DNA of 64,000 bases from Deltaproteobacteria bacterium (GCA_024280335.1 JAJRQI010000069.1:1-64000), one strand, 5' to 3'; numbered from the stretch's first letter, positions 14,658 through 33,055 are shown. A program made the numbers and translations. Notes: generated by a model not told the origin, from the letters alone.

Positions 14658-14678
14658 CTTTGCACTCCTCTCGCGGTG

Positions 14679-15359: not shown

Positions 15360-15415
15360 AATATTCGTTCCTTCCTTTAGTCGCCTGCCGGTGTCACCGA
15401 AAGTGTGGCGAGTTC

Positions 15416-16669: not shown

Positions 16670-16698
16670 TTCAGGACTCCCTCTTTATCGTCTGAGTC

Positions 16699-16726
16699 AT
16701 GGCAGGCGGCAGAAGCCGCCTGCCAT
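16699..16726 (-). promoter_or_regulatory. Intercistronic hairpin between ubiD and the UPF0261 gene
   Basis: The perfect 12-base arms ATGGCAGGCGGC and GCCGCCTGCCAT enclose the loop AGAA. There is no T-tract on the minus strand after it, so it is unlikely to be a strong intrinsic terminator. It more likely protects the upstream ubiD message or lowers expression of the downstream genes. Confidence 0.7.
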
Positions 16727-16733
16727 CTTCCAT

Positions 16734-18257
16734 TTACTTGGCCTTATTAACCACGACTGGTTTGGACAGCCGATCAATCATATCCGCCACGGGACTTGCC
16801 CCCGAAAAGCCGTACTCGTTCCAGCGATCGGAAACCTTCTGCAACACCGTACGGTCCATGAAGATCTCGTTCGGCTTGTTTTTCCACTCGTAAGGTGTGG
16901 TGGCATCCATAATAATACGACTGACAATATCGCGGGCTTCGATCGGCAGGCCTGGATCGAGCGGGGTGGAGCGGCCACGATTAATGATCTGGGTCGAGCG
17001 TTTCGGATCGTAGCGGGTGGCCAGCGCCCACCAGACACGGTCCATGTCGTCCGCCTCGATATCATGATCAACGATGATGATCCCCTTGACGCCGTAATGC
17101 CCGGTGGTACTCCCCATCACCGCGTCGGCGACGTGGTTTGCGTGGCCTGGATACATCTGCTTTACAGAGACGATAACCCAGAAGCGACCGGTGGCCGCGG
17201 CCGGGAAGTAGACGCTCTGAATGCCCGGTACCTTCGCGGTTTCCAGATCGTGCCATAGCGTGGCGGTGCGGTTAATCGACTGGACCATGTGGGTGTCGTT
17301 GATCGGCTTGCCGACCGTGGTTGACCAGAAGACCGGGTTGGTGCGGTGGATGATGCGCTCCACGCGTATCACCGGTTTTGGATAGTCTTTCATCTTGTTG
17401 CCCGAGTAATAACCGGTGTATTCGCCAAACGGCCCTTCCTCCATCAGCTCGTTCGGATCCATCCACCCCTCGACAATGATCTCGGCGTTAGCCGGAAGCG
17501 TCAACCCGGTAAGCTCCGATTTGAATACTTCGATCGGACGACCGCGCAGCGCGCCGCCCACGTCATACTCGTCTGTTTGGGCACTGACCAGGGTGGACCC
17601 GGCCAGGAACAGGATCGGATCGCCCCCCACCACATAGGCGACGGGCATCTTCTCGCCGCGTTCCTGATACTTCTTCATGTGAAAATCGCCGTGCTTGCCG
17701 CTGATTATCTGCGAGCCGAGAATTTTCTTACCCAGAACCTGTGAGCGATAGGTGCCGCAGTTTGTCCAACCGGTATCCGGATCCTGGGTAACCAGGTAGC
17801 CGGAGGTACCGAAAAAACGGCCGCCGTCATCCGGATAAAACCAAGGTGCGGGAAAGTTGTCCAGGTCAACATCTTTCTCTGGAATGATGTTTTCCATGAC
17901 CGCCGGATTGTCTATGAATGTGGGTTTGATCATCTGCTTGGTGGTCAGCTCCATCCATTTCCTGGAAAGCTGACACATGGTAAGGGATGGGTCTTGCTCC
18001 AGGCAGATGGCGATGCGTTCGGGTGTGGTGAAGGCGCTGGTGAAGACCGGAATCGTATGCCCTTTTATGTTCTCATAGAGCATCGCCGGGCCTTTCTGTT
18101 CTTCGTTAACCTTGGATATGTGGGCGAGCTCATACTTCGAGTCCACCTCGGCTTCGACGCGATGTAATAAACCGTGGGCATCCAGTGCTGCGATGTAGCC
18201 GCGGATGTCGTTTATGGGTTTGGTTTCGATGGCCTTTGGTTTCGATTGTTCGCTCAT
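16734..18257 (-). CDS. UbiD-family (de)carboxylase, probable phenylphosphate carboxylase subunit
   Basis: The 507-residue protein is a full-length UbiD enzyme with the prenylated-FMN active-site motif EGPFGEYTG (catalytic glutamate near residue 279), the preceding TVPANAEIIVEG-type strand, and conserved arginine/histidine segments (DPDTGWTNCGTYR, SQIISGKHGDFHMKKY). In anaerobic phenol degradation the UbiD-like Ppc subunits convert phenylphosphate plus CO2 to 4-hydroxybenzoate. The pps genes on both sides support that role. A simple hydroxybenzoate decarboxylase is the alternative. I chose the ATG at 18257, with AAGGAGAC upstream, over a start inside the MITE. No separate PpcC or PpcD gene is visible. 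Confidence 0.85.
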   Translation of the reverse strand: MSEQSKPKAIETKPINDIRGYIAALDAHGLLHRVEAEVDSKYELAHISKVNEEQKGPAMLYENIKGHTIPVFTSAFTTPERIAICLEQDPSLTMCQLSRKWMELTTKQMIKPTFIDNPAVMENIIPEKDVDLDNFPAPWFYPDDGGRFFGTSGYLVTQDPDTGWTNCGTYRSQVLGKKILGSQIISGKHGDFHMKKYQERGEKMPVAYVVGGDPILFLAGSTLVSAQTDEYDVGGALRGRPIEVFKSELTGLTLPANAEIIVEGWMDPNELMEEGPFGEYTGYYSGNKMKDYPKPVIRVERIIHRTNPVFWSTTVGKPINDTHMVQSINRTATLWHDLETAKVPGIQSVYFPAAATGRFWVIVSVKQMYPGHANHVADAVMGSTTGHYGVKGIIIVDHDIEADDMDRVWWALATRYDPKRSTQIINRGRSTPLDPGLPIEARDIVSRIIMDATTPYEWKNKPNEIFMDRTVLQKVSDRWNEYGFSGASPVADMIDRLSKPVVVNKAK

Positions 18258-18320
18258 TGTGTCTCCTTGTTCATTACGTGTTGGAAACTGACTCCAGTCT
18301 TCTTTGCCTGAAGCCACTAA

Positions 18321-18482
18321 CCTGGATCCGTGAGTAAGCGGTGGAGAAAGAGTGCAAGTGCTTGGATTGAATAAGTGTTTCAAAAATTCTTAGCTTCACC
18401 CAAAGGTTAAGCGGTGATTTTTGGGGCGCTTAGACAATTCAATGAATTGTGCTATTTGCCAGCGGGTACTCACGGATTCAGG
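18321..18482 (-). mobile_element. MITE, copy 2 (162 bp), inserted at the ppsB stop codon
   Basis: It has the same terminal inverted repeats as copy 1, in the opposite orientation (starts CCTGGATCCGTGAGTA, ends TACTCACGGATTCAGG). Both flanks read ACTAA, a perfect 5-bp target duplication; the right-hand ACTAA (18483-18487) contains the TAG stop codon of ppsB. It therefore inserted between ppsB and ubiD, inside what was probably one pps-ppc operon. Confidence 0.9.
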
Positions 18483-18483
18483 A

Positions 18484-19575
18484 CTAAGATAATTTCTTGC
18501 CTTCCAGCATGCTGGCGAGAATGTAATCCATCGCTGAGGTCCCCTTGCCGGCGGTGTTCGTTTTTCGTTTTTCGCTCCAGACCGTTTCCGGCCGGGCCTG
18601 CAAAATAAAGATGTTGCCGCCGAACGGCAGGTCCTTGTCGACCGCCCATTCGATGTCCATCGGTCGGCCGTAATGCTTTTCGATCTGTTTGCCCATCCAG
18701 GCCAGGGCGGTGATTTCATCGTCCATCAGCGATTGCACCTTCTGCCGCTCGGGAGGGACGTCGATGACCTGGTTGGTCTGATTCTTGGTGTCGACGGTGT
18801 AGTAGATATCCTTCTGTGAGATGGTCCGCTCCAGAATGTCGAGGGTGACCTTGTTGACGATAAAGTTGTCGGGTGTGACCTCGCCCGAAACCACCGATTC
18901 GCCGAAACCGTAGTTGGAATCGATAACGATCACCGAGCGGTCGCCATTGCCCGGATGCAGGGTGAACATCACCCCGGCGGTGAAGGAGTTGGCCATCTTC
19001 TGCACGCCGACGCTGATCGCCAGCAGTGCGTCATCAAACTTCTGGTTGGCCCGATAGGCAATCGCCCGCCCGGTATACAGGCTGGAGATGCAGCGACGAA
19101 TGTGATGCAGCACCTCATCCGCACCGCGGATCCAGAGATAAGTATCCTGCTGCCCGGCAAAACTTGCCCCGACCAGATCTTCGGCTGTTGCACTGGAACG
19201 TACCGCCACCGGCGCGGCCGGCAGACAGCAACGTAGCGACAGCTTGCGGTAGTATTCGGCGATCAGATCTTCCAGCTCCGTGGATAACGGTTGCGCCTCG
19301 ATCATGCCGCGAATCGTTTCGCTGGTCTTTTCCAGGGCATCCATATCCTGGGTATCGAGACCGGCCAGCAGCGATTGGATCTCCCGGCCGATCCCGGCCC
19401 CGGCCATGAAGCGCCGGTAGCCTTCGGTGGTCAGGGCAAAGCCTGGTGGTACCCGGATTCCGGCATTGATCATTTCGCCAAGGGAGGAGCATTTCCCTCC
19501 GACCAGGGGGGTCGAATCCTTTCGACAGTCCTCAAGCCAGCAAACCAATGGCAGCTCAGTGTTTGCGCCCTTCAT
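18484..19575 (-). CDS. ppsB: Phenylphosphate synthase ATP-grasp subunit (PpsB-like)
   Basis: The 363-residue protein corresponds to the N-terminal ATP-binding part of PEP synthase: KDSTPLVGGKCSSLGEMINAGIRVPPGFALT at the start, VAVRSSATAEDLVGASFAGQQDTYL around 123-147, GFGESVVSGEVTPDNF, and the C-terminal PMDIEWAVDK...ILQARPETVW. In Thauera the 40-kDa subunit 2 provides ATP-dependent phosphorylation of the histidine on PpsA. The size fits. It lies directly downstream of ppsA (about 18 bases). A stand-alone PEP-synthase-like fragment is unlikely because PpsA, which carries the complementary phosphohistidine domain, is next door. Confidence 0.9.
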   Translation of the reverse strand: MKGANTELPLVCWLEDCRKDSTPLVGGKCSSLGEMINAGIRVPPGFALTTEGYRRFMAGAGIGREIQSLLAGLDTQDMDALEKTSETIRGMIEAQPLSTELEDLIAEYYRKLSLRCCLPAAPVAVRSSATAEDLVGASFAGQQDTYLWIRGADEVLHHIRRCISSLYTGRAIAYRANQKFDDALLAISVGVQKMANSFTAGVMFTLHPGNGDRSVIVIDSNYGFGESVVSGEVTPDNFIVNKVTLDILERTISQKDIYYTVDTKNQTNQVIDVPPERQKVQSLMDDEITALAWMGKQIEKHYGRPMDIEWAVDKDLPFGGNIFILQARPETVWSEKRKTNTAGKGTSAMDYILASMLEGKKLS

Positions 19576-19593
19576 GGCACCTCTCCTTTTTAC

Positions 19594-21423
19594 TCAGCGC
19601 TCGATGGAAACGATGCCGGTCGTGCCGTCGATGCGCAGCAGCATGCCGGTTTTGATGATCTTGGTTGCGTGACCGGTGCCGACCACGGCTGGCATCCCGT
19701 ATTCACGACAGACGATAGCCGCATGGCTCATGATCCCGCCGACGTCGGTGACGCAGGCATTGATCTTGGCAAAAGCCGGCGCCCAGGATGGCGAGGTGGT
19801 CGGTGACACCAGAATCTCACCTTCCTGCAACTCACGGATTTCCTTGGCACTGTGGCAGACTCGCGCCCGGCCTTCGACGATGCCGGGGCTGCCGGCGAAG
19901 CCTTTCAGCTCGGTGATGCTGTCCGGATCATCGATATTCTGAACCTCCGACCAGTCGGCCAGGGAGCTGTTGGTCACTCCCCAGAGCACGATGGTAAAGG
20001 GTTCCTGGATCACTTCTGGTGCGGTGCCGATGGCGGCCGGCGCATCCCAGGCGCGGAACTTTTCCATCACCCCTTTACGCCACTCAATCTCGGGCGGCCA
20101 GACAGCTCCGCCGCGCGGCTTGACCCCGGTGGCCCAAGCGGTGACAACGTCCCAGAGTCCCTGTTTGATCTCATCGCGGCGCAGCAGCCAGATGTCATCG
20201 ATCTCCTTGATCAGGCCATGTTCTTTCATGATCGCCGCCACTTCGCGGATTTTCCCCCAGAAGACCGAATGGAACCAATGCTCGACGTAGAAGAGATGGT
20301 TTTCGACATAAGGGAAGACCGTTTTGGCGGTACCGAGCAGCTCGTCGAAGGTTTTGCGATCCTCCTCGGATTCGATCAGGGCGCGATACTCTTCGGTAAT
20401 CCGATCGCGCTCGGCCCGCACCTTGGTCAGCGGCCGTTCGATGTCGGCACCCTCCTTGATTTTTTTGATGTAGGTGGTGATCCCCATCAACGGGATGCTC
20501 AGGTCGTCGTTCCAGCAACAGTCATTGTGTGACCAGCCGGTTCCCGAAGAGATGTAGAACCAGGGGTAGCGGGCCTCTTCGAGGGCTGCGAGCCATTCCT
20601 GACCCTTGGGCAGCTTGTTCAGCGCCGCTTCAACCGGAGCCCACTCCTGACTGCAAGTGATGGCTTGCTCAACCCCCAGGTCGATCGCTTTTTTGGCCAG
20701 CTTTTTCAGCTCGTCGTCAGAGCGGAACATGATTACGTCGATCCCCGAGATCATCTGCGTCACCCGTTGCAGCGGAATACTCGGGAACTGCTTCTGCATG
20801 AAATCGAGAAAGAAGACGTAAGCGGCGTAGCCGAGGTTGAGAAATTCGAAATGGTACTGCCAGCACTTGATGCCGAGGTTGATCAGGTCGTCATACGCCT
20901 TGATCAGGTGGAAGCCCTTCGATTCTCCGACCGCGTCGGTGACCACGCTGATGTCCTCGAGCTCTGGCAGGCCGGGGATCTGCAACTCCTCAAGCTCCTT
21001 GATGGTGGCCTCAATCTTCACCTTCCACTTGGCTTCAAGCTCATCCCAGTTCTGGTAGTAGTAGCCGGCCCGCTCGGTGAAATTCGGCACTCGGCGGCCG
21101 ATCTCCTCCGGATCCTCTACCGGGACCGGAGAGATATAGACGTGGCCGTTGATGATCCGATGGTCGACGCCGCGCACCGGCGGAACCTGGAAAATCCGGT
21201 TATTATATTGAGATAGGGCCAGATACCAGGCTTCATCCCAGATCGTGTCAAAGGGATAGATCGGCTCCGGGTAGTGCAAGCCATCGTAAAACCAGAAGGT
21301 CTTCTCTTCGTACTCTTTGCGTTCCGGGTCATCGGTGGTGAACTGGTACTGGTACGGATACATCCGTTCCCAGCCTTCGGTTCCGGGAATGTCTTTGACA
21401 TCGTGAGGGTTTGGAAATTTCAT
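19594..21423 (-). CDS. ppsA: Phenylphosphate synthase phosphohistidine subunit (PpsA-like)
   Basis: The 609-residue protein (about 70 kDa) ends with the PEP-utilising mobile domain. The phosphohistidine is His567 in TDVGGIMSHAAIVCREYG, close to residue 569 reported for the Thauera enzyme; GFAGSPGIVEGRARV marks the start of the domain. The long N-terminal part, rich in tryptophan and tyrosine, is the region expected to bind phenol. With PpsB it transfers the beta-phosphate of ATP through the histidine to phenol, giving phenylphosphate. It is the first gene of the leftward phenol block, with a sigma-54 promoter about 160 bases upstream and an AAGGGGA site before the ATG. Confidence 0.92.
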   Translation of the reverse strand: MKFPNPHDVKDIPGTEGWERMYPYQYQFTTDDPERKEYEEKTFWFYDGLHYPEPIYPFDTIWDEAWYLALSQYNNRIFQVPPVRGVDHRIINGHVYISPVPVEDPEEIGRRVPNFTERAGYYYQNWDELEAKWKVKIEATIKELEELQIPGLPELEDISVVTDAVGESKGFHLIKAYDDLINLGIKCWQYHFEFLNLGYAAYVFFLDFMQKQFPSIPLQRVTQMISGIDVIMFRSDDELKKLAKKAIDLGVEQAITCSQEWAPVEAALNKLPKGQEWLAALEEARYPWFYISSGTGWSHNDCCWNDDLSIPLMGITTYIKKIKEGADIERPLTKVRAERDRITEEYRALIESEEDRKTFDELLGTAKTVFPYVENHLFYVEHWFHSVFWGKIREVAAIMKEHGLIKEIDDIWLLRRDEIKQGLWDVVTAWATGVKPRGGAVWPPEIEWRKGVMEKFRAWDAPAAIGTAPEVIQEPFTIVLWGVTNSSLADWSEVQNIDDPDSITELKGFAGSPGIVEGRARVCHSAKEIRELQEGEILVSPTTSPSWAPAFAKINACVTDVGGIMSHAAIVCREYGMPAVVGTGHATKIIKTGMLLRIDGTTGIVSIER

Positions 21424-21987: not shown

Positions 21988-24900
21988 ATGAAAAATCTGA
22001 TCATCCGCTGGTTCAAGGTTTATGAAGACGAGATCGAGCTGTTTGTCTGGATGGCTCTGTTGCTGCTGTTTATCCGCAGCTCCAACATCGTTCTGAACAA
22101 TTTTGTTGAGACAGCATTTTTAAAGCGCTACGGGGTGCAGTACCTTCCGGTGATCACGGCAATCAACGCCGTGGCAACCTTCTTTCTGCTCAGCTCCTTG
22201 GGCGGCATCATCGCGCGGGTGCGCAGCGACCGGATGATTGCCCGCAGCCTGATCGCCTGCGGTCTGGTCGTCGGACTGCTCCGTTTTGCGATCCCGCTCG
22301 GTCTGGATCTGATCTACCCGGTTCTGTATGTCCTGAAAACCCAACTCGATGTGCTGTTGACCTTCATCTTCTGGAATCTGGCCAACGACCTGTTCAGTAC
22401 CCGGCAATCGAAGCGGCTCTTTCCGCTGATTACCGCCGGAGGAATTGTCGGCGGAATCATCGGCAGCTTCGGCACCCCCTGGATAGCCAGCCTGGTTTCT
22501 CTGGATAACCTGCTGCTGGTGTTTCCATTGCTAACCCTGGCGGCAGCACTGAGTGCCTGGCGCCTGGGGCTTGTCGCTCCCGGTGGTTCACTGTGGGAGC
22601 AGCAGGAAAAGGGCGGTGAGAAAAAATCGATTTTGCAGGAGATCAGCAAAGTCGGCCCGCTGATCAAATCCTCGACCCTGGCTCAGGTGCTGCTGCTGTT
22701 GGCGTTGTTGCCGAATATCGTGATCCCGGTGCTGAATTATCAGTTTAATTTTGTGGTTGATCAGACCTTCGGCACTGAAGCCGGGATGCTGGGGTTCTAC
22801 AGCTATTTTCGCGGGGCGCAAAATACCATCTCGCTCGTTCTGATTCTGTTTGTCGGCCGCATCTTCGGTCGTTTCGGTTTGCCGATGGCGTTGATGTTTC
22901 ATCCTTTCAACTATCTGTTGGCGTTTACCGCCTATCTGCTCCAGTTTAATATTTTTTCGGCAATCTATGCCGGAACCTCGGTGGGGGTGATCCGCAGAAC
23001 GATCAACGGTCCGGCGACTGCAGCGCTGTACGGCTTGCTGTTGCCGAAGGACCGAAATATTCTGCGTCCTTTTCTGCTCGGGACGGTGGTCCGCTGCGGC
23101 ATCCTGATCGGCTCGGGGATCGTCTGGCTGGGAGCTGCCGCTATGCATCCGCGTTACCTCTCGTTGCTGGCGATCGGCTTTGTGGTGCTCTGGCTGGCGG
23201 CGACCCTGTTGCTGAAAAGGCGCTACTCCCTGATTCTGCTCAATCTGATTCGCGGCGGCCTTCCCGATTTTTACCGGATGAACCGGAAGGAACTCCAAAA
23301 GCTGTTTCGTGGGGTCAATGTGGGTCCGGTTTTGCTCGAACGGTTGCGGGGCAGCAGCGGTGAAGAAGCGGCCTGGTATGCCGATGTTTTGCGCTCGAAT
23401 CGGATCGCCGGGCTGGATGCGGTGATTCTGGAGAAACTGCCGCAATCGGATGATGATACGCGGATCCGGTTGCTTCCCTACCTCTCTGAGCAGAGCGGGG
23501 AACGCAGCCTGACGGTTTTCAGGACGCTGATCGATTCCACCCGGCCGGAACTGCTGGTCGCGCTGGCCAAGGCGGCAAAGCGGATGACCGCGCAGCTGCC
23601 GACGGCAATGGAGCAGGAGATGTTTGCCGCTGCCGCCGATCCCGAAGTGCAGGCCTGTTTTCTCGGCTGGAAGCGGGCCGGCGATCCGGCCGGTCTGTTA
23701 CGTTTGATCGACGGCTGGCTGCAATCGGAGCTGCTTGCCGAACGGCGGGCCGCGGTGCTGGCGATCAGCGAACAGGGGCTGGTTGAGTACACGCAGAGGG
23801 TTTGTCAGCTGCTCGAGGTCGAGAGCGACCCGGCGCTCCTCTGTCTGGTGCTGCGGGTTCTGCCGACACTGAAGGTTGCGGACCGGGGGGGACGGGTTCG
23901 GCGCTTTCTTCGCCATGCCGAATGGAAAGTCCGCCTGGCCGCGGTGGATGTTTTTCCGCTGGCGACCGAGGCGGCAGTGACCGCTCTGATCCCGCTGCTT
24001 GGAGATCCGATCAATCAGGTTCGTCAGCAGGCGATACAGCGGCTGGGAACCGTTGCCAGACCGCTGTACCCGGTACAGGTCGCGGCGATGGGGAATTGCA
24101 GCCGTCGGGTTCTGGATGGTTTGTTTCAGGTTGCCCGGATCCTGGAGATCGAGGAGATCGACATGGTCCGTTTCTGTCGCCGTCAGCTCAAGGTTGCCTG
24201 TCGAGTGGTGGATCTGTCGAATTGGCTGGTCGATGCGCCGCCCGGCGCCAGCCGTGAGCTGCTGCTGATCCATCTAGAAGAGGTTCGCCGGCAGCGGGTC
24301 GACAATGTTGTCCGGGGGTTGGCCGCGCGCGACAAAAGTGGCCGGCTGGAGACCATCTTGCGCGGTTTGAATTCCGCAGGAGCCCGCGAACAGGGAGACA
24401 GCGTTGAGGCTCTTGATGCCTTGCTTGATCAACGACTGTCGCGCATTCTGCTGCCGCAGCTGGAAAATCAATCATCGGCTGAACAGCTTGCGGTCGGTCG
24501 CCGCTATCTGCGGCATCTCCAGCTGGCGACCAGCCAGCGCGATGCTATCGATAAGCTGCTGCAGGATGAGAATGACGTCAGTGTAATTTTGACTCTTGAA
24601 CTGCTGATCGACTGGGGGCGTATCAACGAATTCCGTTGCCGGATTGAAGAATTGACTCGTGCCGAAAGCCCGTTCGTAGCGACCATGGCTGTCGGTGCTC
24701 TGCAGGAAGTGAAGGAGAATGATATGGACGCAGAAGAAGAACTGGTCCGACTCCCCGAGCGGATGTTGCATCTGCGTAAGATCGACCTGTTTCAGGACCT
24801 CTCGGTCAATGAATTGAGTGCGATTGCGCTGGTTGCCGATGAGGTATTCCTGCCGTCTGATACCCAGGTCACCGGTGGCAAGATGGCTTGTCGAAGCGGG

Positions 24901-25293
24901 GCCGGAACCTGTGAGTGCCTGCATGTTCTGATCAGCGGCGAGGTCGTGGTTGAGCATGACCTGAGCAATCGTAGCGTACCGGTTGCTCGTTGGGGAGCCG
25001 GGCAGTCCTTCGGGATCTCCGCCCTGTTCGGCATGAACCAGGTCACCATGAGTGTGCGGACCGTGCAGGAGTCGGTTATTCTCCGGATTTATCAGCAGGA
25101 TTTTTCCGCACTGCTCAAAGAATATCCGGAAATTGCCTTGCGCATGTGTCAGGTTCTGGCCGGACGTCTGGGCGGAGTGGTGGATGAATTGAGCCGGGTG
25201 ACGCAGGAATTCGGGGGTGAGATCAAGCATGGAGAGCCATGCTGTGGGGAACCTCCGGCTATTGACAGCCAGAAAAATCAGGAGGCCGGATGA
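21988..25293 (+). CDS. ATP/ADP-translocase-like membrane domain fused to HEAT repeats and a cNMP-binding domain
   Basis: The 1101-residue protein has about twelve hydrophobic segments in residues 15-415, resembling the nucleotide-transporter/MFS type (VETAFLKRYGVQYLPVITAINAVATFFLL; FWNLANDLFSTRQSKRLFPLITAGGIVGGIIGS). A helical HEAT-repeat region of about 500 residues follows (for example WKVRLAAVDVFPLATEAAVTALIPLLGDPINQVRQQAIQRLG). The C-terminus, about 930-1065, is a CRP-like cyclic-nucleotide-binding domain. That domain lacks a clear phosphate-binding cassette (SFGISALFGMNQVTMSV instead of GE-[LI]-[AS]...RxA), so nucleotide binding is doubtful. It starts a co-directional operon with a GNAT and a PP-loop ATPase (four-base overlaps). 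The function is unknown. Confidence 0.75.
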   Translation: MKNLIIRWFKVYEDEIELFVWMALLLLFIRSSNIVLNNFVETAFLKRYGVQYLPVITAINAVATFFLLSSLGGIIARVRSDRMIARSLIACGLVVGLLRFAIPLGLDLIYPVLYVLKTQLDVLLTFIFWNLANDLFSTRQSKRLFPLITAGGIVGGIIGSFGTPWIASLVSLDNLLLVFPLLTLAAALSAWRLGLVAPGGSLWEQQEKGGEKKSILQEISKVGPLIKSSTLAQVLLLLALLPNIVIPVLNYQFNFVVDQTFGTEAGMLGFYSYFRGAQNTISLVLILFVGRIFGRFGLPMALMFHPFNYLLAFTAYLLQFNIFSAIYAGTSVGVIRRTINGPATAALYGLLLPKDRNILRPFLLGTVVRCGILIGSGIVWLGAAAMHPRYLSLLAIGFVVLWLAATLLLKRRYSLILLNLIRGGLPDFYRMNRKELQKLFRGVNVGPVLLERLRGSSGEEAAWYADVLRSNRIAGLDAVILEKLPQSDDDTRIRLLPYLSEQSGERSLTVFRTLIDSTRPELLVALAKAAKRMTAQLPTAMEQEMFAAAADPEVQACFLGWKRAGDPAGLLRLIDGWLQSELLAERRAAVLAISEQGLVEYTQRVCQLLEVESDPALLCLVLRVLPTLKVADRGGRVRRFLRHAEWKVRLAAVDVFPLATEAAVTALIPLLGDPINQVRQQAIQRLGTVARPLYPVQVAAMGNCSRRVLDGLFQVARILEIEEIDMVRFCRRQLKVACRVVDLSNWLVDAPPGASRELLLIHLEEVRRQRVDNVVRGLAARDKSGRLETILRGLNSAGAREQGDSVEALDALLDQRLSRILLPQLENQSSAEQLAVGRRYLRHLQLATSQRDAIDKLLQDENDVSVILTLELLIDWGRINEFRCRIEELTRAESPFVATMAVGALQEVKENDMDAEEELVRLPERMLHLRKIDLFQDLSVNELSAIALVADEVFLPSDTQVTGGKMACRSGAGTCECLHVLISGEVVVEHDLSNRSVPVARWGAGQSFGISALFGMNQVTMSVRTVQESVILRIYQQDFSALLKEYPEIALRMCQVLAGRLGGVVDELSRVTQEFGGEIKHGEPCCGEPPAIDSQKNQEAG

Positions 25294-25823
25294 GACAGGA
25301 GGTTGTCTATCAGTTCACTGCTCCGGACCAGCTGTCAGCTGACCTGCTGGAAAAAGTCTGCCGATTGGTCGAGGCTGGCGGCGGGGTTCAGGGCCGCTGG
25401 GTCAGGTACAATTTGGCCAGGGCGTTTCTGATCGGCCGGGCAGAAGTCGCCGGAACCCTGATCGGTGTCTCCAGTCTGAAGCATCCCCGGCCGGAATATG
25501 TCCAGCGGATTCGCGAAAAGCTGGGGCTTGATATCGAGGGTTTTCTGGAGCGCGGCTATACCTCGATCCGGCCAGAATATCGAGGGCTCGGTATCGGCAC
25601 GACGCTGCTCGGTGGTTTGACCCGTCGAGCTGCCGGCCAGCGGATCTATTCGTTGATCCGCGAAGATGACCAGGCCACCCAAACGATTGCACGACGTAAT
25701 CAGACGGTAAAAATTGCGACCTTTTTCAGTGAAATTAACGGTAAAGAACTTGGTTTGTGGATGCCGATGACAACCGCCGCAGAATTGAATCTGCCGCCGC
25801 TTGAAGGAGAGGACGTACCATGA
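25290..25823 (+). CDS. GNAT-family acetyltransferase
   Basis: The 177-residue protein has a GNAT acetyl-CoA motif, RGYTSIRPEYRGLGIGTTLLGGLTRRAA, at about residues 89-116. The N-terminal part is less typical. The C-terminal MPMTTAAELNLPPLEGE looks flexible. The ATG overlaps the stop of the transporter-HEAT gene by four bases, and its own stop overlaps the next start by four bases, so the three genes are translationally coupled. The substrate may be a product of the PP-loop enzyme downstream; this is inference. Confidence 0.75.
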   Translation: MRQEVVYQFTAPDQLSADLLEKVCRLVEAGGGVQGRWVRYNLARAFLIGRAEVAGTLIGVSSLKHPRPEYVQRIREKLGLDIEGFLERGYTSIRPEYRGLGIGTTLLGGLTRRAAGQRIYSLIREDDQATQTIARRNQTVKIATFFSEINGKELGLWMPMTTAAELNLPPLEGEDVP

Positions 25824-26995
25824 AGATCACCAATCTGCGGCGAGAGCAGAGTAACGATCGGCTGCGGGTTTCCGCCCGGGTCGAATGGGAAGACTGCAGT
25901 GAGCCTGTTCGGGAGGTTTTTCTGGAAACCATGGCAGACTACGCTCAGGCGTTGACGGTCAACCCGGACAGCTTTCTGATCGGCTGCCTGTTGCCGGCCA
26001 TGCACCGCGGGGAGCGGCGCATCTTGATCGACGGAGCGATCTGCCCGGAATTGTTAGAGAGCCTCGAAACGGCTATGGCTTTGTTCCATTCCTGGTACGG
26101 CCACCGCTATCGCCCGATCCTGCTGGAAACCAGCGGGGCGCGGATGCCGTCTTTGCCGGTTGCTGAGCGGCGGACGGCGATCTTTCTGTCCGGCGGGGTT
26201 GATTCTCTCGCGGCGTTGCGGCGGAATCTGCTGCGCTATCCGCTCGGTCACCCGTCCCGGGCTCGGGATGCTTTTCTGGTGCACGGCTTCGATATCGGCG
26301 GGGTGGTTGAAAAAGGGCTCAAATACCCGGTCTTCGATCGTGCCCTGCAGGCGATGGAGGCGGTTGCCGAAGAGGCACAGCTGGAATTGATCCCGGTCTA
26401 TACCAACCTGCGCCATCTTTGTGATGAACGGGAGCTGTGGCTGAAGAAATTTCACGGCGCGGTGCTGGCCGCGGTCGCCCATGGCTTTACCTGCCGGATT
26501 CAGCGGGCGGAACTTGCGTCGACCTGGGATCTGCAGAGTCTGGCCCCGAGCGGGTCGCATCCCATGCTGGATCCCCTGTACGGCAGCCACGAGCTGCGGA
26601 TTTACCACCGTGATGTCGAGCTGCAGCGGATCGACAAACTGCGGATCATCTCGACCTGGGAGGTCGCTTTCCAGAACTTTCGCGTCTGTCTGCAGAATGT
26701 CCCGGACCGGCTCAACTGCGGCTGGTGTGAGAAGTGTGTGCGCACCATGACCGGTCTGGTGGCGCTGGGCAGGTTGGCTGCAACCCGGGCCTTCGTCGAA
26801 AATGATGTCAGTGTCGAGCTGCTGGAACGGACGAAGATGGCGATCAATCACCGGCAGCCTTTTTATGCCGAACTGATCAAGCCGCTGCGTGAACAGCAGC
26901 GGGACGATCTGGCGGACGTCATTGTCGCAAAGCTGGCGGTTAACGCAGAGCAGCTGCCGCCACCGGGGGGCGAACCGCGACCTGCTGTTCAATGA
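25820..26995 (+). CDS. PP-loop ATPase with a CxxCxxC motif (QueC/asparagine synthase-like fold)
   Basis: The 391-residue protein has the PP-loop SGGVDSLAAL at residues 124-133, a long adenylation-type HUP domain (FLVHGFDIGG; AAVAHGFTCRIQRAELASTWDL), and a cysteine cluster CGWCEKC (Cys300, 303, 306) that could bind zinc or help a metal site. PP-loop ATPases adenylate a carboxyl, amide or carbonyl for attack by ammonia, an amine or sulfur. The family here is not a standard QueC, TtcA or asparagine synthase. It ends 56 bases inside the 3' end of the convergent ATP-grasp gene. With that gene and the GNAT it suggests synthesis or tailoring of a small peptide-like molecule. Confidence 0.75.
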   Translation: MKITNLRREQSNDRLRVSARVEWEDCSEPVREVFLETMADYAQALTVNPDSFLIGCLLPAMHRGERRILIDGAICPELLESLETAMALFHSWYGHRYRPILLETSGARMPSLPVAERRTAIFLSGGVDSLAALRRNLLRYPLGHPSRARDAFLVHGFDIGGVVEKGLKYPVFDRALQAMEAVAEEAQLELIPVYTNLRHLCDERELWLKKFHGAVLAAVAHGFTCRIQRAELASTWDLQSLAPSGSHPMLDPLYGSHELRIYHRDVELQRIDKLRIISTWEVAFQNFRVCLQNVPDRLNCGWCEKCVRTMTGLVALGRLAATRAFVENDVSVELLERTKMAINHRQPFYAELIKPLREQQRDDLADVIVAKLAVNAEQLPPPGGEPRPAVQ

Positions 26996-27950
26996 AATCG
27001 ATCACCTGTTTCTCCAGTTGCACCTGGTCGAGGCGGTTGATCCGCGGGATGCCGCCCGGACTGACGCAGTTGACCTCCACCAGTTTGCCGCCGATGACGT
27101 CGATGCCGACGAAGTGCAGGCCGTCCTTGATCAGACGGGGCCGGATAACTTCGCAGATGTGCCGTTCCGCCGGGGTCAGCCGGTGGGCGTGCTCCTGACC
27201 TCCCGCGCGGATATTGGCGCGAAAGTCGGTGCCGTGCGGCATGCGGCGCATGGCACCGAGGATTTCACCGTTGAGCAGCATAATGCGAACATCCCCCTCG
27301 CTGCGCACCGCTTCCAGGTATTCCTGCACCATGACCGGCTCTCGACGGTTGTAGGGCTCGTAGATGCGGACGTAATAGTTGAGCAGCGAGTTGAGATTTT
27401 CCGGATCCTGAGCGCTGACCTTGATTACCCCCTGACCGCCGAAGCTGCGCAGCGGCTTCATGACCATGGTGCCGCCGAAATCATCAATCACCTTGCGCAG
27501 CCGGGCCGGGTCGCGTGAGACATGAGTTTCCGGGATGATCTCGGGAAAATTGAGCGTATAGAGCTTGCTGTTGCCGAGCAGTTGACCGGCAATGCTGTTG
27601 AGCACGAAGACCCGCTCCTCAACCGAGGCGAGCAGCTCCATCACTTCGTGGAGTAACGGCGGATTCTTGCGCAGAAAGAGCGCGTCAAGCTCGGCGACCT
27701 CTTCGAAAATCCGTTGCTCCTTATCGACACTGGCGACCGCTGCCTGCCAGTAGTTGCGCAGGCTCAGTCCGGGAGCCGCAACGATCTCCTTCATCCGGCC
27801 GACCACCGCGTTGCCCCGCACATAAAGATCGAACGGTTGCAGCACCAGCACCTGATGGCCGCGGCGGTAACATTCGTACATCAACAGGATGCTGGTTTCG
27901 GTGTCGGGGTCGATATGCCCCAGGGCTCCCCGGAGAAAGGCGATTCGCAT
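26940..27950 (-). CDS. Glutathione synthase/RimK-type ATP-grasp ligase
   Basis: The 336-residue protein follows the prokaryotic glutathione synthase pattern: an N-terminal Rossmann-like domain with EVAELDALFLRKNPP and VFVLNSIAGQLLGNSKLYTL, the ATP-grasp lysine/glycine loop MVMKPLRSFGGQGVIKV, VMVQEYLEAV...GDVRIMLLNGEILGAMRR, and the metal-binding FVGIDVIGGKLVEVNCVSPGGI. It joins a carboxylate to an amine via an acyl phosphate. Gamma-glutamylcysteine is the classical substrate, but no gamma-glutamylcysteine ligase is nearby. I chose the ATG at 27950; a longer frame starts at 28022 but lacks family similarity. It follows the N-formylglutamate amidohydrolase-like gene in the same direction. Confidence 0.85.
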   Translation of the reverse strand: MRIAFLRGALGHIDPDTETSILLMYECYRRGHQVLVLQPFDLYVRGNAVVGRMKEIVAAPGLSLRNYWQAAVASVDKEQRIFEEVAELDALFLRKNPPLLHEVMELLASVEERVFVLNSIAGQLLGNSKLYTLNFPEIIPETHVSRDPARLRKVIDDFGGTMVMKPLRSFGGQGVIKVSAQDPENLNSLLNYYVRIYEPYNRREPVMVQEYLEAVRSEGDVRIMLLNGEILGAMRRMPHGTDFRANIRAGGQEHAHRLTPAERHICEVIRPRLIKDGLHFVGIDVIGGKLVEVNCVSPGGIPRINRLDQVQLEKQVIDFIEQQVAVRPPVAAAALR

Positions 27951-28896
27951 GGCGGTGATCCTCGGTCGGTGAAACGAGCAGGGGGAAGGAGGCGGCAGAT
28001 CTCTCTCTCCGATAATCCTCATAGAGATTGTGGATGACCTTTTTCAGCCCGTTCTGCAGCGGCCGAAAAATATCCGGGTCGAGCTGCCCGCTGTGTTCGT
28101 GGCAGTAGACTTTTTTTACTTCAAGGCAGAGGGGCAGGGCCTCGGGAAAGGTTCTGCGTACCCAGTTGACAAAGAATCCGCGGCCCTGAAAGACTTCATT
28201 CTCGGCGACATGACCGGTAATTCCCGGTAGTTCGATACCGCTCAGTCGGTGCAGAAAATTATCCAGCAGTGACCGGTGTCTGCCGACATCGACACCGGCA
28301 GTGCCGAGGTTGAACAGCGGCGCGTCACGGTCGATCTTCGAACCGTTGTAGGAGTGCAGGTCGATCAGTACGCAGAACCCATGACGGCTGATCAGTTGCG
28401 CGATCAGGGTTCCGGCCAGGTGATAGAAACTTGCATGTCTGCTCAGCGCTCTGCGCTGCGCCGGATGTGTCCCTGCCCGCCAGATGTTGCGGCCGAAAAC
28501 AAAGCTGTTGAGTGCCTGCTCGGGGGCGCGGTTCAGGTCGTAATGGTAGCGTGATTCCGAGCCCGCCAGCACGATCGGCAGCGGTTCAAGCAATTGCCGC
28601 GTGTGCGGATCTTCTTCAAAGCGGCGCTCTGCCGGGGAGAGCAAACAGTGCTCTTCCAGTTGACGGGGGAAGGTCGAACCGTCATGCAGGGCAGTGCAGA
28701 CCAGCGGCAGGTATTCGCTGATACTGACTGCGCAGATCCCGTCGGCAAAGGCCCGGAACGGCGTCCGATTGTGGATGCGGCGCACCGCCTCCTTGATTCG
28801 GAGCTGTGAGTTCGTCCCTGTCCCGCTTTTTTCAACGAGACTCAGGTCCGGGCACCCGATCTGAATCAAGCTGTCGGACGCGGCACTGAAATCCAT
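27721..28896 (-). CDS. N-formylglutamate amidohydrolase-like protein with a run-on C-terminus
   Basis: The first 310 or so residues resemble the N-formylglutamate amidohydrolase / zinc carboxypeptidase-like fold: RTPFRAFADGI, HASFYHLAGTLIAQLISRHGFCVLIDLHSYN with likely metal-binding histidines, and CLEVKKVYCHE. Residues 316-391 are read out of frame through the start of the ATP-grasp gene and are proline/arginine-rich without family character, so a real or sequencing frameshift just before 27950 is likely. Families of this type hydrolyse N-acyl or formyl amides and often neighbour ATP-grasp genes. The substrate is unknown. A GAGGGA site precedes the ATG. Confidence 0.7.
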   Translation of the reverse strand: MDFSAASDSLIQIGCPDLSLVEKSGTGTNSQLRIKEAVRRIHNRTPFRAFADGICAVSISEYLPLVCTALHDGSTFPRQLEEHCLLSPAERRFEEDPHTRQLLEPLPIVLAGSESRYHYDLNRAPEQALNSFVFGRNIWRAGTHPAQRRALSRHASFYHLAGTLIAQLISRHGFCVLIDLHSYNGSKIDRDAPLFNLGTAGVDVGRHRSLLDNFLHRLSGIELPGITGHVAENEVFQGRGFFVNWVRRTFPEALPLCLEVKKVYCHEHSGQLDPDIFRPLQNGLKKVIHNLYEDYRRERSAASFPLLVSPTEDHRHANRLSPGSPGAYRPRHRNQHPVDVRMLPPRPSGAGAATVRSLCAGQRGGRPDEGDRCGSRTEPAQLLAGSGRQCR

Positions 28897-29230: not shown

Positions 29231-31237
29231 ATGAGGTACGCAGAGACAGGATTTAACTTGGAGATTGATCTCTCCCGCGGAAACATTGAGAAGGTTGCCA
29301 CGGATCCGAGAGATACTGAACTTTATCTCGGCGGCTTGGGGACCAACGCCAAGATTCTCTGGGATCGGGTTCCCCCGGAGGTTGAGCCTTTTTCCCCGGA
29401 AAATCTGTTGATCTTCGGTGCCGGTCTGCTCTGTGGAACACCGGCGACCGGCTGTAACCGGACCATCGTCTCGACCATCTCCCCGCAGACCAAGCTGTTG
29501 GCTTTTTCGATGATGGGCGGTTTCTGGGCACCGGAATTGAAGTATGCCGGTTATGACAAGGTGGTGCTGCGCGGCAAGTCGCCCGAGCTGGTCTATCTGT
29601 GGATTCACGATGACAAGGTAGAAATTCGCGATGCCGCCCATTTGCGCGGCAAGGGCGCGATTGAAACCGCCGAGCTGATTAAAGCGGAATTGAACGAGCC
29701 GAAAGCCCAGGTGGCGGCGATCGGCATGGCCGGGGAGAACCGGGTTTTTTATGCTTCGGTCGAGCAGGGCCGCTCAAGTGCCAGCCGCGGCGGCATCGGC
29801 GCGGTGATGGGCGACAAGGGGCTGAAGGCGATCGTGGTGCGCGGCACCAAGGATCTCAATGTTGCCCAGCCGGCGGAGTATATGGAGCTGTGCAACGAGG
29901 TGCTGGAATATATCAAGCACCGCGAAGACAATCCGATCCCGGGCGTGATGCCGATTCTGGCCGGGCTCGGTTCACCGCAAGAGATGAAAGTTCACGATGA
30001 AAAATGGCACACCGAAAACTTCATGTGGGGCAACTCGCGGGAGCGCAAAAGAGATTTCTGGAATGATGAGGTCGCAAAAGAGTGGACGGAGACGATGGAG
30101 AAGGCCCGGACGCGGCTGATCAGTTGCTTCAACTGTCCGATGAAATGCGGCGCCACCATCTCGATGCCGGGGTTGCCGACCTACATGATGAAATGCTTCA
30201 CCAAGCTGACCTATACCATGGGCGCTTTTTCAGACCTGGATTTCGGTTTGAGGATTGCCCAGAAAGCCACTGAATATGGTGTGGATGGCTTTTCTGCTCC
30301 GCAGGTGATGGCCTTTGCCCTGGAGCTGCTGGAGAACGGCATTCTGACCGACGAGGACTTTCCTGAAATGCCGGAGGACAGTGAAGGCAGATTTTTCTAT
30401 CTGCTCGACAAGATTGTCCGCCGCGAAGGGATCGGCGATATCCTGGCTGACGGCACTCATTGGGCGGCCGAGCGGATCGGAAAGGGTGCTGCTGCCTATG
30501 CGCATAACAATATCAAGAAGACCGAGCAGCTGCCGCTGAAACTGTCGATGCTGAATCCGGTCTATTTCCTGATGTACGCGACCGGCGAAAAAATGAATAT
30601 CACCCAGATTGAGGGGCAATTTCCGCAAGCGCCGTTTGCGACCAAAGAGGAACGGGAAGCCTTTGTTTCCGATTGGATTCAGGTTCCCGACGAAAAGTTC
30701 AAGCAGTATCTGCTCGACTGGGAATTCCGCGGCGAGAACTCGAACCCCTACTATCCAACCGTCCAAATGTCCTGCGATATCGTCGATTGGCAGGAGACGA
30801 TGCACTATATTGATGACGCTCTGGGTCAGTGTGCCGGGTTGTCATCCTTCCCCCTCAAGCCGCCCTACCATATCCACAACTACCCCAAATTTATCTCGGC
30901 GGGGGCCGGTATCGAGATGGACGAAGAGAAGCTCAAGCAAGCTGCCAAGCGCTATCGGACCCTGGTTCGGGCCCTTAATACCCGCAGAGGGATGCGGCGT
31001 AAAGATGAGAAGCCGCCAGCAAACCATTGGAAGAAGCGATTCCCCGAACTCGAAGAAGAGCTGCTGGATACTTACTACAAGTTCAAGGGCTGGAATAAAG
31101 AGGGTATCCCGACCATAGAGTCCCTGCATGAATTGGGTCTGGGTTATGTGAGTGACGACTTTATCGAGCGCGGTATCCTGGTCGAGGGTGAAGAGGACTT
31201 TCCCCAAGAGGTTTCGGCGGCGACAGAAGAGTCTTAG
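29231..31237 (+). CDS. bamB: BamB-type tungsten aldehyde oxidoreductase-family benzoyl-CoA reductase subunit
   Basis: The 668-residue protein belongs to the aldehyde:ferredoxin oxidoreductase (AOR) family, with the N-terminal pterin-binding domain (DLSRGNIEKV...YLGGLGTNAKILWD) and the [4Fe-4S] cysteines Cys299, Cys302, Cys306 (CFNCPMKC) and Cys534. In class II benzoyl-CoA reductase the W-bis-pterin site reduces benzoyl-CoA to the dienoyl-CoA. A generic AOR is the alternative, but the following genes are exactly bamC-I in order, which decides for BamB. A GGGG-type site precedes the ATG. A sequence check of the zinc and substrate residues would settle whether it acts on benzoyl-CoA. Confidence 0.88.
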   Translation: MRYAETGFNLEIDLSRGNIEKVATDPRDTELYLGGLGTNAKILWDRVPPEVEPFSPENLLIFGAGLLCGTPATGCNRTIVSTISPQTKLLAFSMMGGFWAPELKYAGYDKVVLRGKSPELVYLWIHDDKVEIRDAAHLRGKGAIETAELIKAELNEPKAQVAAIGMAGENRVFYASVEQGRSSASRGGIGAVMGDKGLKAIVVRGTKDLNVAQPAEYMELCNEVLEYIKHREDNPIPGVMPILAGLGSPQEMKVHDEKWHTENFMWGNSRERKRDFWNDEVAKEWTETMEKARTRLISCFNCPMKCGATISMPGLPTYMMKCFTKLTYTMGAFSDLDFGLRIAQKATEYGVDGFSAPQVMAFALELLENGILTDEDFPEMPEDSEGRFFYLLDKIVRREGIGDILADGTHWAAERIGKGAAAYAHNNIKKTEQLPLKLSMLNPVYFLMYATGEKMNITQIEGQFPQAPFATKEEREAFVSDWIQVPDEKFKQYLLDWEFRGENSNPYYPTVQMSCDIVDWQETMHYIDDALGQCAGLSSFPLKPPYHIHNYPKFISAGAGIEMDEEKLKQAAKRYRTLVRALNTRRGMRRKDEKPPANHWKKRFPELEEELLDTYYKFKGWNKEGIPTIESLHELGLGYVSDDFIERGILVEGEEDFPQEVSAATEES

Positions 31238-31265
31238 AGAAAAACCAGAGTGGAGGGCGTGAGCC

Positions 31266-31802
31266 TTGAAGAAGACTAAAATAATTAAAAACATAATCAT
31301 CGATGTCGACAAGTGCAACGGTTGCCGTGCCTGTGAGGTTATCTGCTCCTCCTTTCACGCGATGCCGAAATACAGCAACAACAACCCGGAGAGATCTCGG
31401 ATCAGGGTGATCCACGAGCCGCTTCGAGACGTCTATGTCCCGATCTACGCGGGTGAGTATGCGGTTGCTGAGTGTGCAGGCCGGGACAAGTATATTATCG
31501 ACGGCAAGGAATATGACGAGTGTGCTTTCTGTCGAGCTTCTTGCCCGTCGAGAGACTTGTTCAAGGAACCGGATTCCGGTCTGCCGCTGAAATGTGACAT
31601 GTGTGAAGGCGAAGATGAGCCGCTCTGTGTCAAGTGGTGCCTGGCCGAGGCCCTGATCTATGAAGAAAGAGAAGTCGAAATCGAAGAGGATGAAGAGGCG
31701 CCGGACGAGATTGCCATCGGCCTGGAATCTCTGGCCAACAAGCATGGGATGGAAAAGGTCATCGATACGATCGCACAGCTTTCCAAGACATTGAAGAGCT
31801 AA
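31266..31802 (+). CDS. bamC: BamC-type ferredoxin-like iron-sulfur subunit
   Basis: The 178-residue protein has several [4Fe-4S] motifs: DKCNGCRACEVICSSFH near the N-terminus, CAFCRASCPSRDLF, and KCDMCEGEDEPLCVKWC. The polyferredoxin pattern is that of the subunit that shuttles electrons between BamB and the rest of the complex. The C-terminal 45 residues are acidic and lack cysteines. The start is a TTG at 31266 with a GGAGG site in front; no in-frame ATG or GTG fits better. It follows bamB by 28 bases. Confidence 0.88.
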   Translation: MKKTKIIKNIIIDVDKCNGCRACEVICSSFHAMPKYSNNNPERSRIRVIHEPLRDVYVPIYAGEYAVAECAGRDKYIIDGKEYDECAFCRASCPSRDLFKEPDSGLPLKCDMCEGEDEPLCVKWCLAEALIYEEREVEIEEDEEAPDEIAIGLESLANKHGMEKVIDTIAQLSKTLKS

Positions 31803-31840
31803 ACAGTTGCCAAAATAGAATCAATAGGACAGGTGAAATT

Positions 31841-32992
31841 GTGGAAACTGTAGCCCCCGAAAAAGAAATCATCGAGGTCATAAAAGAGAACGGCGGCGAC
31901 TCGTTCAAGTACTGCTACCAGTGTGGCAAGTGCGACGTGGTTTGTCCCTGGAACCGGGTGCGGGATTTCAGTATGCGTAAGCTGATCCGCCAGGCAACCT
32001 TCGGTTTGACCGAGATCGACCAGGAAGAGATGTGGCGCTGTACCACCTGTAAGACCTGCGTCGACAACTGCCCGCGCGGCGTCGATCAGATTACCGCCGG
32101 GGTTGCCCTGCGCAAGCTCGGCGCCGAGTATGACGTCTATCCCGGGAATATCGGTCCCATCCAGTCGGTGGTTGCCAGTCTGACCTCCGAGGGCAACTCC
32201 TTAAGCGGCGAACGCGACAAGCGGGCGGAATGGGCCCAGGGGCTGGCGGTCAAGACCTACGCCGAAGGAATGGAGGTGCTCTATTTCACCGGCTGCTACC
32301 TCAGCTACGACCCGCGCATGCGCGAGGTGGCTGCTGCGACTGCCGGCATCCTCAACAAGGCCGGCGTCGATTTCGGTATCCTCGGCAGCAAGGAGAGCTG
32401 TTGCGGTGAAAGTATCCGCAAGGCCGGCAACGAAGATCTCTTCAAGCGCCTGGCCAGGGAGAACATCAAGGCGTTTATCGAGAACGGCGTCAAGAAAGTC
32501 GTGGTCTCTTCACCCCATTGCTACCACAGCTTTAAGAACGAATATCCGGAATTCATGGTCAACTTCGAGGTGGTCTTCATCTCGCAATATGTCGCCGAAC
32601 TGGTGAACGATGGCCGGCTCGAGCTCAACAAAGAATTCGCCAAAAAAGTCACCTATCACGACCCCTGCTACCTGGGCCGGCATAACGATATCTACGACGA
32701 GCCCCGCAAACTTCTGCAGCAGGTCTCCGGACTGGAACTGAGCGAGATGGCCGATAACCGCGAAAAAAGTCTCTGTTGCGGCGGTGGTGGCGGGCGCATC
32801 TGGGTTGAGACCCCCAAGGAGGACAGATTCTCCGATCTGCGCGTGAGGCAGGCCGTTGATGTCGGTGCCGAGGTTCTGGTGACTTCCTGCCCCTATTGCA
32901 TCACTAATTTTACCGACAGCTGCCTCGGCTTGAACGAGGATGAGTCCCTGAAGATCATGGATATTACGGAAATCATTCAGGCCGTGCTGTAA
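31841..32992 (+). CDS. bamD: BamD, HdrD/GlpC-like iron-sulfur protein
   Basis: The 383-residue protein has two N-terminal [4Fe-4S] motifs (CYQCGKCDVVCPW and CTTCKTCVDNCPRGV) and two CCG domains (FTGCYLSYDP...ESCCGESIRKAG and HDPCYLGRHNDIYDEP...KSLCCGGGGGR). This is the heterodisulfide-reductase D-type module that relays electrons in Bam complexes. Each CCG cysteine set is complete. The start is GTG at 31841 after AGGACAGG. The gap after bamC is 38 bases. Confidence 0.9.
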   Translation: METVAPEKEIIEVIKENGGDSFKYCYQCGKCDVVCPWNRVRDFSMRKLIRQATFGLTEIDQEEMWRCTTCKTCVDNCPRGVDQITAGVALRKLGAEYDVYPGNIGPIQSVVASLTSEGNSLSGERDKRAEWAQGLAVKTYAEGMEVLYFTGCYLSYDPRMREVAAATAGILNKAGVDFGILGSKESCCGESIRKAGNEDLFKRLARENIKAFIENGVKKVVVSSPHCYHSFKNEYPEFMVNFEVVFISQYVAELVNDGRLELNKEFAKKVTYHDPCYLGRHNDIYDEPRKLLQQVSGLELSEMADNREKSLCCGGGGGRIWVETPKEDRFSDLRVRQAVDVGAEVLVTSCPYCITNFTDSCLGLNEDESLKIMDITEIIQAVL

Positions 32993-33055
32993 CGGCGGCA
33001 GCACCTCCTCCCGCTGAAGCAGTTACGGCACGGCCTTTGGTAAAGGACAAATATT

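Follow-up and report, generated by a model that had tools for sequence, protein, structure and literature searches.

A five-gene locus at positions 21988-28896 of a Deltaproteobacteria bacterium contig (GCA_024280335.1 JAJRQI010000069.1:1-64000; the window, meaning the whole 64,000-nt stretch analyzed) encodes an NTT-HEAT-cNBD membrane protein, a GNAT acetyltransferase, a PP-loop (QueC/QatC-like) ATPase, a GshB-like ATP-grasp ligase (GRASP1), and an N-formylglutamate amidohydrolase-like (FGase-like) zinc enzyme. It is strongly supported that these genes form one functional unit. There is an even chance that the unit is a conserved module making and handling a small amide-linked (peptide-like) metabolite. 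Its parts belong to known families; no role is known for the combination, nor for two of its members, the PP-loop family and the NTT-HEAT-cNBD protein.

The locus is composed of a three-gene plus-strand operon (NTT-HEAT-cNBD, GNAT, PP-loop) that converges on two minus-strand genes, with the FGase-like gene followed by the ATP-grasp gene. The minus-strand open reading frames (ORFs) span 27721-28896 and 26940-28022, respectively. The features are:

21988..25293, plus strand: NTT-HEAT-cNBD fusion, 1101 aa, with a transmembrane part at ~1-430, HEAT repeats at ~560-700, and a cyclic-nucleotide-type domain at ~925-1070 (Pfam/NCBIfam; architecture as in PMC5381601)
24889..24918, plus strand: CX6CXC insertion (C968, C975, C977) in the cyclic nucleotide (cNMP)-type domain (alignment)
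25290..25293, plus strand: ATGA overlap of the NTT stop and GNAT start, with AGGAGG upstream (sequence)
25290..25823, plus strand: GNAT acetyltransferase, 177 aa; PF00583 over cut-off, acetyl-CoA motif RGLGIG intact
25820..25823, plus strand: ATGA overlap of the GNAT stop and PP-loop start (sequence)
25820..26995, plus strand: PP-loop (QueC/QatC-like) ATPase, 391 aa; SGGVDS at 124-129, zinc-type Cys4 motif C290-x9-C300-x2-C303-x2-C306
26940..27950, minus strand: GshB-like ATP-grasp carboxylate-amine ligase GRASP1, 336 aa (Pfam/NCBIfam, alignment with GshB, family distribution)
27721..28029, minus strand: 3' remainder of the FGase-like ORF (its end plus a stretch that overlaps the ATP-grasp gene in another frame); homologues lack it
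28030..28896, minus strand: FGase-like zinc amidohydrolase, conserved part (Pfam); H71, DLNR 120-123, and D179-x-H181 conserved (alignment)

An earlier note on this DNA described three translationally coupled genes facing two convergent ones, and the ORFs are as it stated. Since both plus-strand junctions are ATGA overlaps with AGGAGG- or AAGGAG-type ribosome sites upstream, translational coupling is plausible from the sequence. Profile matches support the note's domain calls apart from that of the PP-loop protein. Two minus-strand ends had to be corrected. All GRASP1 homologues begin at a position equivalent to 27950 (MRIAFLRGALGH), so the start is probably there instead of at 28022. The FGase-like ORF is 391 residues long, and its homologues stop near residue 290-306. 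The final ~90 residues are an overhang: the homologues' stop is absent, and for ~230 bp the ORF overlaps the ATP-grasp gene in another frame, beside a GAGAGAGA run. Judging from the sequence, this is probably a lost stop or an assembly indel near GAGAGAGA. The catalytic motifs of the four enzymes (GNAT, ATP-grasp, FGase, and PP-loop) look intact.

Conservation and linkage of the genes

Conservation was assessed in a phylum-wide survey of 395 sampled genomes and a close-relative survey of 78 relatives. The PP-loop protein is found at 55-80% identity in 4 of the 78 relatives, with weaker matches in 3 more. The loci of these PP-loop relatives, plus independently found contigs, contain other module genes. 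All five genes occur, reordered, in Geothermobacter hydrogeniphilus (L010/L017), in a second member of the Geothermobacter genus-level group (G067, L011), in a metagenome-assembled genome (MAG) of the same family (G030, L012/L016), and in a third genome of the order (G047, L013). A Deferrisomatales MAG (L018) has four of the five. In the Geothermobacter order of genes, the FGase-like gene faces the PP-loop gene and the ligase is upstream of the NTT gene, while all five genes of G047 are on one strand. All five proteins rank the relatives in broadly the same order of similarity, which is what joint movement as a unit would give. Among 44 sampled family members, the only carriers are G000 and G030. 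Given this low count and the differing flanks, the module has probably often been transferred or lost.

Across the 395 genomes, the GNAT family is present in 21, NTT proteins in 37, and GRASP1 in 25. An NTT protein accompanies GRASP1 in 23 of its 25 genomes, in 18 of these on the same contig within 7 kb and in eight families. The GNAT family is accompanied by an NTT protein in 20 of 21 genomes (17 on the same contig within 7 kb). Co-occurrence has p-values of ~1e-22 to 1e-28, which are made optimistic by shared ancestry. The genes are linked in eight families, in varying orders and between varying flanks, and this repeated, rearranged linkage rules out chance adjacency. The earlier note had treated the five genes as one set, and the comparison of gene neighbourhoods decisively upholds this: the set is conserved in related genomes. 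Its author knew of no described system with this set. Searches of open-licence papers on ATP-grasp, FGase, and GNAT neighbourhoods, on QEGLA, on NTT-HEAT, and on ATP-grasp, radical SAM, and GNAT in Desulfobacter likewise yielded no description of it.

Wider versions of the module are found in relatives. G379 (L037) has a same-strand run of ATP-grasp, FGase, GNAT, a second, RimK-like ATP-grasp, and PP-loop genes, with the NTT gene opposite and facing. The sets of families f39 and f71 are made up of the NTT gene, ATP-grasp followed by FGase, a RimK-like ligase, a GNAT fusion, and an oligopeptide-type ABC transporter. In these families the cNBD is sometimes a separate gene, and the fusion partner of the GNAT is either a B12-binding radical SAM protein or its degenerate relative. 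In L037, L087, and L088, GRASP1 and the FGase gene after it overlap by 4 bp. Genes for nucleotide cyclases often lie nearby, and relatives also have in the set an oligopeptide-type substrate-binding protein, together with permeases and ATPases.

In the genomes tested, matches to the RimK-like ligase are confined to these loci, and neither the window's genome nor its close relatives have the ligase. They also lack an orthologue of the importer, with only a 31% paralogue in the window's genome; the orthologue is present in G253. The window thus carries a reduced version of a wider system. The relatives' combination of a biosynthetic set, an oligopeptide/nickel-type ABC importer, and a possible exporter is like that of the opine metallophore systems staphylopine and pseudopaline (PMC5719457). 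The likeness is an analogy only: unlike in those systems, no opine dehydrogenase or nicotianamine-synthase-like gene was seen, and the window's genome does not have the importer orthologue.

The five proteins

The NTT-HEAT-cNBD family was published in 2017 (Major, Embley and Williams; PMC5381601) as uncharacterised, with Deltaproteobacteria among its carriers. The window protein, the single match in its genome, has HEAT repeats and then a cNMP-type domain in one chain, and its three domains, the NTT-type one being putative, are in the same order as in the published family. A cNBD encoded by a separate neighbouring gene is reported there and also occurs here in family f39. The passages of that paper covered here give no function and no neighbourhood partners beyond the cNBD. 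In the present genomes, unlike in that account, the protein is tied to ATP-grasp, FGase, and GNAT genes and, in some genomes, to PP-loop genes as well, and members from the window's clade have lost the nucleotide site.

The individual domains of the window copy match to different degrees. The cNMP_binding domain is above the Pfam cut-off (7.5e-11, 42.3 bits). TLC (ATP/ADP transporter) is a weak match at 19.0 bits against a cut-off of 21, and is found at E < 0.01 in five of six family members. HEAT/HEAT_2 is weak, just below the Pfam cut-off, and HEAT_2 is found in six of six members. Both the TLC and the HEAT matches are clearer in relatives than in the window copy.

The earlier note judged the cNMP domain to be degenerate, and alignment agrees. 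The Glu and Arg of the phosphate-binding cassette (FGE..ALF...RSA) are lost in the window copy, which reads FGISALFGMNQVTMSV. Both residues are also gone in its closest relatives; L018 retains the Glu. Relatives outside the window's clade have the canonical GDYFGEMALF..PRSATV or near variants, many with an adjacent cyclase gene. A class III cyclase has no match in the window's genome, versus matches in ten other genomes tested. The CX6CXC insertion is present in the window, L010/L011, and L012 and absent from L013, L018, L035, L041, and L075. Together with a Cys-containing C-terminal tail, it is common to the window, the Geothermobacter group, and G030 only. From its sequence, it is a possible metal or redox site.

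Two further observations concern the NTT-HEAT-cNBD genes. That of the G030 MAG is divided by an in-frame stop (L012/L016, ~2985). SUMF1/formylglycine-type proteins, recognized by sequence reading and mutual similarity, adjoin these genes at L035:3424-4239 and L036:7173-8102 and in L092 and L094.

The PP-loop call is based on the SGGVDS and Cys4 motifs, whose cysteines are invariant in 17 sequences. The protein has no Pfam match up to E 10, including PF06508, no NCBIfam match, and no strong match to a PDB sequence. Profile alignment with E. coli QueC (hhalign) covered the P-loop alone, in 30 columns. An AlphaFold2 model has a predicted local distance difference test score (pLDDT) of 85. Foldseek with this model gave weak matches (best E 0.014). 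Structural re-alignment placed QatC first (Z 15.4, root-mean-square deviation 4.7, 297 residues, model 1-374), followed by QueC (Z 12.6) and Cap9 (12.2), with MnmA, ThiI, TilS, and LarE behind at ~9-10. The predicted fold resembles the QueC/QatC class, and the assignment is one of resemblance only.

Zinc and SGGxDS motifs and a YPDC-type substrate motif are described for the QueC superfamily in a 2026 survey of PF06508 (PMC13329287) and a paper on QatBC (PMC13279940). The window protein has in common with the superfamily and QatC the SGGxDS loop, the Cys4 zinc-type motif, an N-terminal extension ahead of the QueC-like core, and a whole-chain model match to QatC. The first spacing of its Cys4 motif (C-x9-C-x2-C-x2-C) is one residue longer than that of QueC (C(x)8CxxCxxC). 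The YPDC motif, by which QueC recognizes CDG (7-carboxy-7-deazaguanine), is absent from the sequence, and ORF reading found no queD or queE neighbours at the locus. The partners QatA, QatB, QatD, and CD-NTase are also absent there, and the protein has no match to the PADLOC QatC profile. Having no PF06508 match, it is a QueC-like branch outside the PF06508 survey, whose text does not mention ATP-grasp or acetyltransferase.

Nostoc, Gloeothece, Azospirillum, Priestia, and Gemmobacter have distant homologues of the PP-loop protein (~26-41% identity), which lie in clusters of exopolysaccharide type and often next to a gene for polysaccharide pyruvyl transferase. On a Gemmobacter plasmid (L047:7962-11426), a PP-loop homologue, an ATP-grasp, and a GNAT lie in a row within a polysaccharide region, beside such a transferase. 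Other distant homologues are in phage-like contigs (L082, L084, L085, and L086), some of them apparently close to genes for tail or structural proteins, as phage cargo genes would be.

GRASP1 matches GSH-S_ATP at 9.7e-54 and also GSH-S_N (Pfam). It retains the residues aligned with R210, R225, D273, E281, and N283 of E. coli GshB, which we take to be Mg and substrate-carboxylate or catalytic ligand residues. It shares full-length similarity and both domains with GshB, but falls below the GshB equivalog cut-offs (PRK05246, 259.3 versus 272 bits; TIGR01380, 233.5 versus 299 bits). Scores across the 395 genomes are bimodal, with 25 genomes at 471 bits or more and the next match at 241. GRASP1 is a discrete family.

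The FGase-like protein matches PF05013 (1.3e-17, 65.1 bits versus a cut-off of 28.9) and keeps the putative zinc residues. It has the Pfam FGase domain and the His, Asp, and DLNR residues in common with HutG, and has a solved relative, 2q7s. Unlike HutG, it is far below the HutG equivalog cut-off (15.9 versus 278.75 bits), is the sole FGase of its genome, and is outside any histidine-utilisation operon.

GNAT homologues in many relatives are fused to a B12-binding radical SAM protein. In the fusions at L075:8441-10747 and L089:9609-11921, this radical SAM protein resembles C-methyltransferases of ribosomally synthesized and post-translationally modified peptides. The N-terminal part of the L036 fusion has no radical SAM match.

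Proposed pathway and alternatives

Two ATP-dependent carboxylate-activating enzymes, an N-acyltransferase, and an amidohydrolase suggest amide-bond assembly and trimming. The peptide-type importer, RimK-like ligase, and B12-radical-SAM/GNAT fusion of relatives fit a peptide-like product. In the proposed scheme, the ATP-grasp enzyme would activate a carboxylate as an acyl phosphate and join it to an amine, and the QueC/QatC-like enzyme would convert a carboxylate to an acyl-adenylate and then an amide. The GNAT would acetylate or acylate an amino group. The FGase-like zinc hydrolase would serve for deblocking or recycling, by removing an N-acyl group or cleaving an amide.

The NTT-HEAT-cNBD protein is the sole membrane protein of the core and its most constant partner, and is thus the best candidate for moving the product. 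It would most likely move product or precursor and be gated by its cytosolic HEAT/cNBD part. Cyclic nucleotides, often made by a cyclase encoded next to it, probably control this gate in most lineages. The window's lineage has lost the nucleotide site, and its conserved Cys cluster suggests control by a metal or redox signal there. The substrates and product, like transport by the NTT protein, its direction, and its gating, are what we infer.

A fuller claim is possible, held with rather less confidence than an even chance: that this is an undescribed pathway to a new amide-linked metabolite, scattered piecemeal over Desulfobacterota, with carriage by an NTT-HEAT-cNBD protein, a QueC-like amidating enzyme outside PF06508, and a cysteine-based sensor that replaces the cyclic-nucleotide gate in the window's clade. 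The NTT-HEAT-cNBD protein has been described since 2017, with no function given in the parts of PMC5381601 covered here, and its phylum-wide tie to two ATP-dependent ligases, an acetyltransferase, and an amidohydrolase makes a testable biochemical question. If correct, the module would be the first functional context for this transporter family, which is also present in Chlamydia trachomatis (as NTT-HEAT) and oomycetes. It would add a QueC/QatC-like family outside the surveyed PF06508 while relatives of QueC prove to do unexpected conjugation chemistry. Should the product be a metabolite of these anaerobes, it would represent a class new to them.

Several observations weigh against the metabolite module. 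The NTT domain matches true nucleotide transporters weakly and the model of its transmembrane part was discarded (pLDDT 38); transport is a role that we infer. Among the loci that retain the NTT, GNAT, and ligase genes, those of f39 and most of those of f71 lack the PP-loop gene, which is therefore not core to the module. Homologues of the PP-loop protein also occur alone in polysaccharide clusters and phage-like contigs. The reduced version in the window's genome, with neither importer nor RimK-like ligase, may differ in role.

The exopolysaccharide-type clusters with distant PP-loop homologues, and in Gemmobacter also with an ATP-grasp and a GNAT, would fit decoration of a cell-surface glycan. 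Here the PP-loop enzyme would amidate uronic-acid or similar carboxylates, and the ligases would add amino acids to a glycan precursor carried by the membrane protein. This is unlikely: no glycosyltransferase or sugar-nucleotide gene is in the window's set, or consistently in its conserved relatives, and inspection of the glycan clusters showed no GRASP1, FGase, or NTT gene in them.

Another possibility is that GRASP1 is the organism's glutathione synthase, with glutamate-cysteine ligase encoded elsewhere, and that the other genes transport, acetylate, and hydrolyze glutathione or a like thiol. Its full-length similarity to GshB, with conserved active-site residues, fits this role, as does the presence in the genome of a GCS2-type glutamate-cysteine ligase (at C61) without another strong GshB. 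The role is nevertheless quite unlikely, since GRASP1 is under every GshB equivalog cut-off and tracks NTT and GNAT, not glutamate-cysteine ligase. GCS2 is found in 59 of 78 relatives versus 5 of 79 for a close PP-loop relative, the marker of the module, and G253 has GRASP1 with no GCS2 match.

The whole-chain match of the PP-loop model to QatC, followed by QueC and Cap9, would also suit a system for protein modification or phage defence of the qatABCD or type IV CBASS kind, whose QueC-like enzyme attaches a small molecule to the N-terminus of a protein. Homologues in phage-like contigs near structural genes are in keeping with it. Such a system is distinctly improbable: the set has no QatA, QatB, QatD, or CD-NTase partner, PADLOC gave no convincing match for any of the five proteins (the best were low-scoring and partial), and the PP-loop gene is missing from many module versions, whose linkage is of ligases and transporters. 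That two independent units (NTT-GNAT-PP-loop and ATP-grasp-FGase) converge by coincidence is scarcely credible, for although they are on opposite strands, with a 56-bp tail-to-tail overlap of the PP-loop and ATP-grasp genes and no shared promoter above chance at the locus, the halves are linked in all five complete-set genomes in several arrangements, and GRASP1 is within 7 kb of NTT in the 18 genomes of eight families.

Genes around the module

The module is an island in the window. One flank (14052-21423) contains a phenylphosphate carboxylase beta gene (TIGR02724, over cut-off), a UbiX-type gene, and split PEP-synthase-like genes, and the other (29231-36142) contains aldehyde:ferredoxin-oxidoreductase/Hdr-type genes. 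A tie to these phenol and benzoyl-CoA-type degradation genes is ruled out, since other inspected genomes have different genes around the module, e.g., his genes in L012 and an HD-GYP gene in L010/L011. The latter encodes an HD-GYP-type (HD_5) membrane protein and adjoins the ATP-grasp gene in the two Geothermobacter-group genomes (L010:7492-8793 and L011:3325-4626). In L018, an HD-GYP-like gene adjoins the NTT gene.

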